34,830 nucleotides of DNA from Candidatus Shapirobacteria bacterium (GCA_027039485.1 JALWDZ010000016.1:62528-97357), one strand, 5' to 3'; positions 26,477 through 34,830 are shown, counted from the stretch's first letter. The notes: generated by a model from the sequence alone, not told the origin. Program-made: numbers and translations.

Positions 26477-27559
26477 ATGAAAATAACGTCAAGAATCCCG
26501 CTGGTATCGGTAATAGTGACCACTAAAAACGAAGAAAAGAATATTGGCAACTGCCTGGAAAGCATTAAGCGCCAAACTTATCCGCAGGAAAGAATAGAAA
26601 TTATTGTTGTTGATAATAATTCGACCGACAAAACTAAAGAAATTGCCCGCCGGTATACCCGGAAGGTTTATAACCGGGGGCCGGAGCGCTCGGCACAGAG
26701 GAATTACGGAATGATTGAGAAGGCAAAAGGGAAATATGTGATGTATCTTGATGCGGACATGATTCTTGCCAAAACGGTGATTGAGAGAGCGGTGAAAAAA
26801 TTAGAAATAGATAGAAATATACTCGCTTTGCTCGTGAAACATGTCCCGATTGCATCGGGACGAAATATGTCCCGCAAGCGGGACGAAATAAAGGGAAATA
26901 AAATAGTTGCTCTATATATTCCTGAGGTAGTACTGGGTAACTCCTTTTGGAGCCGGGTGCGGCGGTTTGAGAGAAGTTTTTATGACGGAACAGTGATTGA
27001 TTGTGCCCGAATAATGCGAAAAGATGTCTTTGAAAAGGTGGGTGGTTTTGACGCCTCACTTACTGGCCCAGAAGATTGGGATTTAGATAAAAAATTAAGA
27101 AAGATGGGAAAAGTGGAGCTGGTGGGGAGGTATGATTTTGAAGAAATAAATAAAAAAATAGAAAAAATAGAAATAACTAGAAATATGGTCGCCAAAGGTG
27201 ACCGAAATATGCCCTTCGGGCGAAATAAACTCGCTGGCGCGAGCGAAATTGAGAAATTGGTAAATTTGACCGATGAGGCGGTGATTTTCCACAATGAGGC
27301 AGAATTTAATTTACAGGAATATTTGCAAAAGAAAGCTTATTACGGCCAAAGCTTTGCGAAATATATTAAGAAATGGGGCAAAGATGACCCTGATATCAAA
27401 AAACAATTGGGTTTTTGGTACCGCTACTTCGGTGTGTTCACTGAAAAAGGAAAGTGGAAGAGACTAATTCGCCATCCAATTTTGGCAATAGGTATGTTCT
27501 TTTTGCGCTTCTTAGTCGGATGGCAATATTTAAAGGGAAAGGTGCATAGTAAAAGTTAG
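26477..27559 (+). CDS. GT2-family glycosyltransferase containing two in-frame hairpin-array insertions
   Basis: VSVIVTTKNEEKNIGNCLESIKRQTYPQERIEIIVVDNNSTDKTKEIA...YVMYLDADMIL...GPEDWDLDKKLRK. Confidence 0.85.
   Translation: MKITSRIPLVSVIVTTKNEEKNIGNCLESIKRQTYPQERIEIIVVDNNSTDKTKEIARRYTRKVYNRGPERSAQRNYGMIEKAKGKYVMYLDADMILAKTVIERAVKKLEIDRNILALLVKHVPIASGRNMSRKRDEIKGNKIVALYIPEVVLGNSFWSRVRRFERSFYDGTVIDCARIMRKDVFEKVGGFDASLTGPEDWDLDKKLRKMGKVELVGRYDFEEINKKIEKIEITRNMVAKGDRNMPFGRNKLAGASEIEKLVNLTDEAVIFHNEAEFNLQEYLQKKAYYGQSFAKYIKKWGKDDPDIKKQLGFWYRYFGVFTEKGKWKRLIRHPILAIGMFFLRFLVGWQYLKGKVHSKS
26843..26884. repeat. Hairpin array A (in CDS)
   Basis: GTCCCGAT-TGC-ATCGGGAC (26843-26861), cgaaatat, GTCCCGC-AA-GCGGGAC (26869-26884), followed by gaaataaa. 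Confidence 0.85.
27187..27243. repeat. Hairpin array B (in CDS)
   Basis: GGTCGCC-AAA-GGTGACC (27187-27203, one G-U), gaaatat, GCCC-TTC-GGGC (27211-27221), gaaataaa, CTCGC-TGGC-GCGAG (27230-27243), cgaaatt. Confidence 0.83.
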
Positions 27560-27615
27560 AATATCGCTAGCAATGGCTGAGATATAAATGATAAACTAAA
27601 ATTCAAGAAGAAATT

Positions 27616-31858: not shown

Positions 31859-32767
31859 ATGAACCCTAATAAGAAAGTGTCAGTGGTAATCCCAACCATG
31901 AATAGGGCTGATGATGTAATAAATTGTATAAAGTCGGTGTTGGCTTCCACATATAAGAATATTGAAATAATTGTGGTTGACAATGCATCTAGTGATAATA
32001 CAACTGCTCAAATTGAGAGAATTTTTTCAAAAAATAACAAAATTAAGTTAATCAAAAGTGCAATTAATTTAGGGGCTGCTGGCGGTAGAAATAGAGGAGC
32101 GAAAGAAGCCACCGGAGATTATTTATTATTTGTAGATAGCGATAATGTTGTAGATAAGGAGATGATAGGCGAATTAGTACGTTTTTTTAATAATCATGAG
32201 AAATGTGGAATGGTTGGCCCTCTAATGCTTTACAAAAGAGACCCTAAGATTATATGGCTATATTTCGCCGATATAAATATGTTCACCAGCCAAGCAAAAT
32301 ATAAGGGGACAGGGGAAAGAGATAGAAAACAATATAGCAAAGTTATCGAAGTAGGACATTTGCCCAACTGTTTTATGGTGAAAAAAGATGACTTTATAAG
32401 AGTTAGCGGATTTGATAGCAAGTATATAATAATGTACGAGGAGGCTGATCTTGCAGAAAGAATAAAGAGAGAGTTAAATAAAAAGATTTATCTGTATTCC
32501 GCAGCAAGAACATTTCATAATGTAGAACTTATAAGAAATAAAAAGAAAAATGGGTTTCTGTTTAGCTCAGAGCGCAGGGCCTATCTTACAGGACGAAACA
32601 GGGTTTATTTTATGAGAAGAAATGCTTCTCTATTGCAATTATTGTCTTTTTTCTTTGTATTTAATCCACTTATATTACTTTACTATGAAATCAACTTGCT
32701 AAAAAGCGGTCAGATTAAGCAGGCATGGGCTTATCTCTATGGCAATATAAAAGGGTTTCGGCTATGA
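31859..32767 (+). CDS. GT2-family glycosyltransferase
   Basis: VSVVIPTMNRADDVINCIKSVLASTYKNIEIIVVDNASSDNT...NLGAAGGRNRGAKEATGDYLLFVDSDNVV. Confidence 0.88.
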   Translation: MNPNKKVSVVIPTMNRADDVINCIKSVLASTYKNIEIIVVDNASSDNTTAQIERIFSKNNKIKLIKSAINLGAAGGRNRGAKEATGDYLLFVDSDNVVDKEMIGELVRFFNNHEKCGMVGPLMLYKRDPKIIWLYFADINMFTSQAKYKGTGERDRKQYSKVIEVGHLPNCFMVKKDDFIRVSGFDSKYIIMYEEADLAERIKRELNKKIYLYSAARTFHNVELIRNKKKNGFLFSSERRAYLTGRNRVYFMRRNASLLQLLSFFFVFNPLILLYYEINLLKSGQIKQAWAYLYGNIKGFRL

Positions 32768-34830
32768 AAGAGCGCAAAAAAACATTATTGGTTGTTTTAT
32801 TATTTATCTTTATTACCCACTTAGTGTTGTCAAAGATCCTTTTTAATGACCGACTACTTGGAAGGTCAATAGATTTTTCCGTTCCTCCAGTAAGTTTTTT
32901 AATGAAAAATGTTTATTTGACAAGCTTTTTTCAGTGGTGGATAAAGCCAAATGGTGGTGGTGTTGGTGTTTTTCCGGCTACACTGATTCCTGTGAATTCT
33001 ATCTTATATTTTCCTCTTTTATTTAAACTGGGGTCTTGGTTTATTGCTAGATATCAAATTGTCTTGACAGTTTTTTTTGCGATGTTTTCTTTTTATCTCC
33101 TGTCTAAAAGAATATTGAGAAAATATGCGCTAAAAGAAGAACACAAAACTTTTTTGTCTATTGCTGGGGCTCTTTTTTTTACTTTGAATAATTACTTATT
33201 TTTGGAAATTATATTTGGGAGCAGTGTAATGTATCTAACATTTTCTTTTATTCCGTTGCTATTGTACTCGGTGATTTCTTACCAAGAGGGTAAACGGAAA
33301 ACATTCTTTTTCGTTCTCTCTCTCTTATCCTTGCTCATAATATCTTCAACATTACAACATTTTATTCTGGCTTACATTTTATTATTGCTGCTATCTTTTA
33401 TATATGACGATATAAAATTATTTTTTAAATTAGCATCAGTTCATTTTTTATCTAGTCTTTATTGGATTCTCCCATTATTAAATGCCTTCTTTGGGGCTAG
33501 TGGTTTAAAAATACCAGTTGCAACAAATTGGACTACTAGCCTGAAAATATCGAGTTCAAAATTTATAGATGCTTTGGTAAACAAGGAATACTTTTCTAAT
33601 AGGAATATCTATAGTTTAGCTCTTGGCAATCGTTTCCTGCAATTATTATGGCTTTTTAATGCGTTTATTCTATTAGCAATTTCCTTATCCTGTTTATGGC
33701 ATTTGAAATACTATAGTAAAAAAGAGAGAAAGACGGTTTTTGGTTTATTCATGATCTTTTCTTTCTCCCTCTTGTTTATTAAAGGCGCTCGTGCGCCTTT
33801 TGGCCATTTTGTTTGGTTTTTATATAACAATTTCAAAATGTTTGCCCTGTATAGATCTCTTCAGCACTATATTAGTTTTTATGTAATATCTGTGTCCACT
33901 CTGTTTATATTCTCCGGAGTGTATTTAGTTAAAAAAAATAAATATTTCCTTTATTTCGCAGGTCTTTTGGTTTTTGTAAATAGCATGCCTTGGTGGCTAA
34001 CTCGCGATCTAGGGACTAAAAATATTGTTTCTACAAATAGAATATCATCCTATTTTGGGCAGTTTTATCTAACAAGAGGGGATATTTTAATGTACGAGCT
34101 TAATAAGCTGCCGTCGGATTTTGCAATTATGCATATCCCTCCCGCTTTTTCTGTTAATTTTTTAGCCGTCGGGAAAAATAATTTTGACTATATAATACAA
34201 GGAAATAAAAAAATAAAAAGCCAAGGCGGCGATGCTGGTTTAGCCTATGGGAATAAGCGTTTTTTCTCCGCAGAAAATTCTTCTATTTTCAAGGATTTAT
34301 TAGATTATCTAGAGGAAGGAGTATATACAGAACAAAGTTTTTTTAATAAAAATAAGTATATATTTCCCTTGCTAAATATTAGGTATTTTGTCTTGCGGAA
34401 AGATGTAGCGCCGCTTTTTTCCAAGAATGCGAAACTTTTTAACGCACAAAAAGTTGGAAAATCAATTTTGGGAGCCAGCATTTTCTCGTTAGTAGAAAGC
34501 CACGATTTTATTACTATTGCAAAAATTGATGATAAATATTTTCTTCCCCATTTCTACCTCCCCCATCACATAATTTACTCTCCTAATGACATTAATGCCT
34601 TGCCGGAGATTGTGGGGATGCCGGGGTGGAAATTGAGGACGGCGATATATTTGGCTGCGAAGCAGCCGGATACAAATAGAAACATGCTCGCTAGCGCGAG
34701 CGATACAAGCTCGCCCCGCCACAGCGGGACTCGCGAAATACGCCCTACGGGCGATATAAAGAGAAACATGCCCCGCAAGCGGGGCGATATTGATAGAAAC
34801 CTATCGGGGCGGGATAGGGAAATTTTGGAG
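32764..34830 (+). CDS. Large polytopic membrane protein (GT-C/YfhO or DUF3367-like), runs off window end; absent from supplied ORF track
   Basis: ATG 32764 overlaps the preceding TGA (ATGA). Checked line by line: 689 codons open to position 34830, MKERKKTLLVVLLFIFITHLVLSKILFNDRLLGR...KGARAPFGHFVWFLYNNFKMFALYRSLQHY...GMPGWKLRTAIYLAAKQPDTNRNML. Confidence 0.8.
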   Translation, partial: MKERKKTLLVVLLFIFITHLVLSKILFNDRLLGRSIDFSVPPVSFLMKNVYLTSFFQWWIKPNGGGVGVFPATLIPVNSILYFPLLFKLGSWFIARYQIVLTVFFAMFSFYLLSKRILRKYALKEEHKTFLSIAGALFFTLNNYLFLEIIFGSSVMYLTFSFIPLLLYSVISYQEGKRKTFFFVLSLLSLLIISSTLQHFILAYILLLLLSFIYDDIKLFFKLASVHFLSSLYWILPLLNAFFGASGLKIPVATNWTTSLKISSSKFIDALVNKEYFSNRNIYSLALGNRFLQLLWLFNAFILLAISLSCLWHLKYYSKKERKTVFGLFMIFSFSLLFIKGARAPFGHFVWFLYNNFKMFALYRSLQHYISFYVISVSTLFIFSGVYLVKKNKYFLYFAGLLVFVNSMPWWLTRDLGTKNIVSTNRISSYFGQFYLTRGDILMYELNKLPSDFAIMHIPPAFSVNFLAVGKNNFDYIIQGNKKIKSQGGDAGLAYGNKRFFSAENSSIFKDLLDYLEEGVYTEQSFFNKNKYIFPLLNIRYFVLRKDVAPLFSKNAKLFNAQKVGKSILGASIFSLVESHDFITIAKIDDKYFLPHFYLPHHIIYSPNDINALPEIVGMPGWKLRTAIYLAAKQPDTNRNMLASASDTSSPRHSGTREIRPTGDIKRNMPRKRGDIDRNLSGRDREILE
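34686..34818. repeat. Hairpin array C (in CDS; probably continues past window)
   Basis: GCTCGC-TAGC-GCGAGC (34686-34701), CCCGC-CACA-GCGGG (34715-34728), GCCC-TAC-GGGC (34742-34752), GCCCCGC-AA-GCGGGGC (34770-34785), CCTATC-N7-GATAGG (34800-34818), joined by cgaaata/cgatata/gatagaaac linkers. Confidence 0.85.

Follow-up and report, generated by a model that had tools for sequence, protein, structure and literature searches.

In-frame palindromic modules in protein genes of a Candidatus Shapirobacteria genome: a candidate repeat family

The final 34.8 kb of contig C16 of a Candidatus Shapirobacteria genome (GCA_027039485.1; 695 kb in 27 contigs), a stretch of 34,830 nucleotides hereafter called the window, carries arrays of short GC-rich hairpins that lie in frame within protein genes. 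These modules recur in several copies, are missing from homologues of the genes that hold them, preserve the reading frame, and covary in their stems from one module to another. Related modules occupy intergenic sites in a second genome, G442, from another family of the same class. We consider it more probable than any other account (about 0.6) that the hairpins are modules of a new palindromic repeat family resembling miniature inverted-repeat transposable elements (MITEs) and repetitive extragenic palindromes (REPs), and behaving like Rickettsia palindromic elements (RPEs) when located inside genes.

Module arrays and their host genes

A survey of the whole genome except about 1.8 kb yielded 32 palindromic modules in 10 arrays (W1 to W3 and A1 to A7), together with one decayed module in the window (Table 1). 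The arrays are confined to two regions, namely the window (26.8-27.25 kb and 34.65-34.82 kb) and the minus strand of contig C26 (62.7-65.5 kb), and all are in frame on the coding strand. Modules are typically GC-rich hairpins, roughly 4-8 bp long, mostly bounded by G and C, set on AT-rich spacers (GATAYAAATAGARAYAT, GATACAA, GAAATAT) and flanked by AYAT at the 5′ side and GATA or GAAA at the 3′ side; the spacers joining modules are nearly constant (e.g., GATACAAATAGAAAYAT, GATACAA, GAAATAT). The main types are h1 (GCTCGC-TNNC-GCGAGC, with an additional form in which the 3′ arm is direct rather than inverted), h2 (GYCCCGC-AA-GCGGGRC), h3 (GCCC-TNC-GGGC), h4 (GTYCCGAT-TGC-ATCGGRAC), and h6 (GCTCGCCCCGCCACAGCGG..CTCGC). 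Blocks of ~95 nt with the order h1-h2-h3 or h1-h6-h3 align at six places. When h1 and h2, which have the same length and flanks, were pooled, none of 500 shuffles reached either the number of paired cells or the covariation score, a contrast that depends largely on two sequence types. Arm pairing over 37 listed modules (32 from this genome and 5 from G442) was 81% of positions versus 32% after shuffling, a figure that overstates the fit because the list was compiled with the hairpins in view. Rfam models returned no match at the gathering threshold at four loci. Palindromes from other families (CCTGCCTGCGCAGGCAGG, TCCGCCAGCTGGCGGA, TGCCCCGACGTNACGTCGGGGCA) are also numerous between genes across the genome, set within AAATCCTAAA-type AT-rich repeats, for example at 1485-1504 and 20105-20155 of the window.

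Palindromic in-frame inserts were located in at least three genes of this genome. The first insert of the window's glycosyltransferase gene is found in none of 28 aligned homologues from the class, and at the position of the second insert only one of them (L090) has a loop, which is shorter and devoid of palindromes. A protein on C26 corresponds to the C-terminal portion of a group of proteins, relatives of which, at 13 aligned loci, have no palindromic segments, and a third host gene, at about 62.7 kb of C26, holds array A7. In-frame palindromic insertion combined with insert-free homologues is the pattern that characterizes protein-coding palindromic repeats. Homologues of both the glycosyltransferase and the membrane protein lie about 6 kb apart in genome G250, so the ends of C16 and C26 may belong to a single membrane-protein gene split by assembly; we keep this reading conditional, since no read-through is seen over the outermost ~100 bases of C26. 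No close homologue of either gene was found in the organism's own genus and family. The membrane protein also contains another in-frame AT-rich repeat (C26, about 65560-65500 and 64450-64400; L115) encoding peptides like INLLTNSRINGLK, and its homologue in genome G397 has a similar peptide, INGLTDSRINGLK. Directly downstream of A7 lies an in-frame tract of GCGGATGNCGCGGAT-type repeats (C26, about 62660-62540, minus strand).

Related modules in a second genome

A covariance model built from ten modules gave one good match outside the window's genome, in G442 (E 0.0014; such E-values are rough, and the comparison rests on two genomes). G442 is 60% complete, and about 394 kb, roughly half, was surveyed (up to contig 60, plus four loci). 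It holds similar spacers with different stems, which are replaced on both arms, in five intergenic arrays. Judged by eye from translations, their neighbours are recR/dnaX, a response regulator, ftsW/murG, mutL, and secA. The modules thus repeat at unrelated sites, non-coding DNA included: at least three genes in one genome and five intergenic arrays in the other. Conversely, a model made from G442 sequences only and run on 664 kb of the window's genome returned six matches (E up to 1), all of them inside known arrays.

The stems of G442 are mostly self-matching. Inserts chosen by their flanks alone numbered 18 in the surveyed sequence, and 12 had an outer stem of 5-7 bp without a break; the other six were wobble-ended, mismatched, direct-arm, decayed, or unrelated. 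In the 7-bp class (eight sequences), all 56 cells were paired, four pairs had changed on both sides, and the covariation score was reached by 0 of 500 shuffles. The flank-only count is the fairer figure because these eight sequences were picked with their stems in view. The arrays of the two genomes are laid out differently: in all five G442 arrays plus-strand modules come first and minus-strand modules last, pointing inward, and the modules of an array in the window's genome share one direction, along the coding strand. Two further features of G442 arrays were noted. Between ftsW- and murG-like frames on contig C112 (L182, 1484-1994), a gene of the 23S_rRNA_IVP family (PF05635) lies between ++ and -- hairpin sets, like the cargo of a small mobile element. 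On contig C113 (L145, 1-480), a recR-like frame facing dnaX terminates within the hairpin array, an arrangement suggestive of rearrangement or misassembly there.

Beyond these two genomes, the exact module pattern had no match in GTDB contigs or viral contigs. The few matches to the spacer pattern there were single and had no adjacent hairpins, and were taken as chance. When the spacer pattern was searched with one mismatch in 385 genomes of the class, hairpins adjoined it, besides in the window's genome, only in G442; six other genomes had single spacer matches with no hairpin beside them. A degenerate G442-style hairpin was not found in viral contigs, nor did the G442 model match in 67 loci surrounding homologues of both host genes. 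We found no description of these modules in the open-licence literature.

The conserved unit and the origin of stem pairing

The starting observation was a pair of h2 hairpins in the window, GTCCCGC-AA-GCGGGAC at 26869-26884 and GCCCCGC-AA-GCGGGGC at 34770-34785, both of which were recovered at these positions. The two 16-mers differ solely at positions 2 and 15, which pair with each other, so that the second stem pair is T-A in one and C-G in the other. In-frame translation gives ATG TCC CGC AAG CGG GAC (MSRKRD) and ATG CCC CGC AAG CGG GGC (MPRKRG), in agreement with the peptides SRKRD and PRKRG read originally. With up to 3 mismatches the 16-mer has three matches in the window (two sites, one matched on both strands) versus 0.23 expected, and a count of three was reached by 1 of 100 shuffles; the pair of sites is therefore unlikely to be due to chance. 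The 695-kb genome contains the extended 29-nt module, AGAAAYATGYCCCGCAAGCGGGRCGAWAY, six times and a reversed control pattern not once, and the module is absent from the 388 other genomes of a 389-genome sample of the phylum. The four copies beyond the window, on C26, comprise two T-A and two unpaired C.A, which brings the second pair to T-A in three copies, C-G in one, and C.A in two, with the remaining six pairs invariant.

The original prediction had regarded this one covarying pair as suggestive rather than as proof, and that caution was justified. In a covariation test of the kind it had proposed, applied to the stem columns of all six copies, the score was reached by 247 of 500 shuffles, and uncompensated change, which by its account would count against it if seen in many copies at the background rate, is present as the C.A mismatch in two of six copies. 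These mismatched copies indicate that a stepwise path exists, and an ordinary two-step route through the mismatch explains the h2 pair, since the score also lies within the shuffled range. Other uncompensated or wobble stem changes occur in GCCCTTCGGAC, GCCCTGCGGGT, and ACTCGCTGGCGCGAGC. That the two changes are a mere coincidence of independent point mutations is nevertheless the least probable of the readings weighed here: the same pair position shifts from T-A to C-G in G442, where three neighbouring pairs covary, and a second compensated pair occurs in h4 (GTCCCGAT..ATCGGGAC in the window versus GTTCCGAT..ATCGGAAC on C26).

The prediction had further read the paired changes as a sign of selection on the fold, or of arm-templated copying, rather than on the protein alone; either process may keep the arms matched. 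The T-A/C-G pair does not by itself show that the fold is kept in preference to the peptide, and the h4 pair joins other observations in favour of this view. Variants within the hairpin families of the window's genome comprise 11 non-synonymous and 2 synonymous changes (few events), and the h3 module GCCCTTCGGGC is read in two frames, as RNMPFGRN in array W2 of the glycosyltransferase and, in the majority of arrays, as TSPSGD (so on C26) or something very similar; DNA, and not peptide, therefore appears to be conserved. The same modules are intergenic in G442 with different, self-matching stems, which likewise argues for the DNA hairpin. Taken from sequence comparison, these observations point to the hairpin as the thing kept.

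Under the palindromic-repeat reading, a ~95-nt block of several modules would have been copied to several sites and would have entered at least three genes, the surviving copies being those that were in frame, free of stops, and at tolerant positions, as proposed for RPEs. The maintained entity would be a hairpin formed by single-stranded DNA (or RNA), since the two arms of a stem change together and the spacers remain as they are, and this hairpin may be the recognized or self-maintaining part of the element. Mobility, selfish spread, and tolerance by the host proteins are what we infer from this pattern. Several facts weigh against it. Modules were detected in only two of several hundred genomes of the class that were searched, and copies in the window's genome are restricted to two regions, so that they may have arisen by local duplication. 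Mismatches are present in two of six h2 copies and in several other modules, and the eight 7-bp sequences of G442 were selected as described above. No transposition event, target-site duplication, or within-species empty site was seen.

The chief alternative account of how pairing persists is arm-templated copying, in which replication template switching in a quasi-palindrome rewrites one arm from the other and restores pairing without selection on the hairpin. Hairpins are known to be generated and preserved by template switching, a single event of which can yield both a perfect stem and compensatory changes (PMC8794818); mismatched C.A intermediates are present here, and h1 occurs with both an inverted and a direct 3′ arm (GCGAGC or GCTCGC) in both genomes. 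The h2 pair is explained equally by single-base changes that pass through a mismatched state, however, and template switching is a mutation process, not an element, that leaves the shared spacer, the block structure, and the dispersal of the modules unexplained. We regard this account as unlikely. More doubtful is the idea that an undescribed mobile element in Patescibacteria ends in these arrays, with two inward-pointing hairpin sets able to carry a gene, such as the four-helix-bundle 23S_rRNA_IVP-family gene between ++ and -- sets in G442, with a hairpin-only form that could be absorbed in frame into surface-related proteins.

Mobilization by a REP-associated tyrosine transposase (RAYT) was considered in view of a Y1_Tnp gene (C26, 63081-63686, minus strand; PF01797) that lies between A6 and A7, i.e., between two hairpin-bearing genes. 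REPs are palindromes that are sometimes intragenic, and their sub-families have alternative complementary stem residues (PMC3733652). However, no GTAG or CGTC tag accompanies the hairpins, the RAYT gene's own coding sequence holds in-frame REP-like GTAGGGGCG palindromes (GTAGGGGCGAAA..TTTTCGCCC) of a different type, and no close RAYT relative was found in the surveyed 394 kb of G442, all of which makes this explanation improbable. Local tandem duplication, that is, ordinary intragenic expansion of a hydrophilic peptide in surface-protein loops with incidental palindromes, would fit the confinement of the arrays to two regions and their uniform placement on the coding strand. It is at odds with the intergenic modules of G442, the reading of one module in two frames, the mostly non-synonymous changes, and the covarying stems, and we give it very little credence.

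Table 1. Hairpin modules, inserts, and host genes in the window
Feature	Position	Strand	Support
Family-2 glycosyltransferase gene, 360 aa, two in-frame inserts	26477..27559	+	PF00535 E 9.5e-29; 28 aligned homologues (266-318 aa)
Insert 1 (array W1), about 29 codons, IDRNILALLVKHVPIASGRNMSRKRDEIK, approximate boundaries	26804..26893	+	Missing in 28/28 aligned homologues
Decayed h1-type module ACTCGCTTTGCTCGTG	26821..26836	+	Sequence; core CTCGCTTTGCTCG recurs in G442 (L145)
h4 hairpin GTCCCGAT-TGC-ATCGGGAC; compensated C26 copy GTTCCGAT-TGC-ATCGGAAC	26843..26861	+	
h2 hairpin GTCCCGC-AA-GCGGGAC, second pair T-A	26869..26884	+	
Insert 2, about 51 codons, palindromic only in middle (27187-27244), approximate boundaries	27125..27280	+	Missing in 27/28 homologues
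Hairpin GGTCGCC-AAA-GGTGACC, one mismatch	27187..27203	+	
h3 hairpin GCCC-TTC-GGGC, read as RNMPFGRN	27211..27221	+	
h1 hairpin ACTCGC-TGGC-GCGAGC	27229..27244	+	
Large membrane-protein open reading frame, open at contig end; C-terminal homologous part on C26	32725..34830	+	No Pfam match
Hairpin GGCTGC-GAA-GCAGCC, start of array W3	34653..34667	+	
h1 hairpin GCTCGC-TAGC-GCGAGC, preceded by spacer GATACAAATAGAAACAT	34686..34701	+	
h6 composite module GCTCGCCCCGCCACAGCGGGACTCGC	34709..34734	+	
h3 hairpin GCCC-TAC-GGGC	34742..34752	+	
h2 hairpin GCCCCGC-AA-GCGGGGC, second pair C-G	34770..34785	+	
Hairpin CCTATC-GGGGCGG-GATAGG	34800..34818	+	

Relation to known palindromic repeats and significance

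Intragenic palindromic repeats, among them RPEs, intragenic REPs, and palindromic amphipathic repeat coding elements (PARCELs), are already known, as are complementary alternatives in REP stems (PMC10969869, PMC3733652, PMC2996958). The modules described here resemble RPEs, which have reported counterparts in Wolbachia and Methanocaldococcus jannaschii, in being in-frame palindromic DNA in unrelated protein genes as well as outside genes, and the ~95-nt block is comparable to the RPE size of about 150 bp. The likeness is one of description, and no sequence relation is claimed; unlike an RPE, which is one palindrome, the element described here combines several small hairpins, joined by a constant spacer, into a mosaic, and its host is Patescibacteria-like. 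With REPs and bacterial interspersed mosaic elements the modules share short, GC-rich, clustered hairpins, sometimes in opposite orientation, and, in the window's genome, a nearby Y1_Tnp gene, but they differ from them in the missing tag, in the several unlike stems per array, and in the few copies per genome. They are MITE-like in being short repeats that seem to be non-coding, that lie mostly between genes in G442, and whose overall layout is a dyad pointing inward, although neither defined long terminal inverted repeats nor a parent transposase or target-site duplication was found. PARCELs are likewise palindromic coding repeats in membrane-associated proteins; their product is a tandemly repeated, conserved amphipathic motif of 25 residues, whereas the peptides here are short, non-amphipathic, variable, and frame-changing, as judged without a hidden Markov model search.

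With similar spacers and replaced stems, the modules provide a natural experiment on how the two arms of a DNA hairpin remain complementary, in which coding copies with mismatched intermediates can be set against intergenic copies that are mostly matched. The genomes of Patescibacteria are usually called streamlined. If the proposed reading is true, this group would join the few lineages known to have palindromic repeats inside protein genes.

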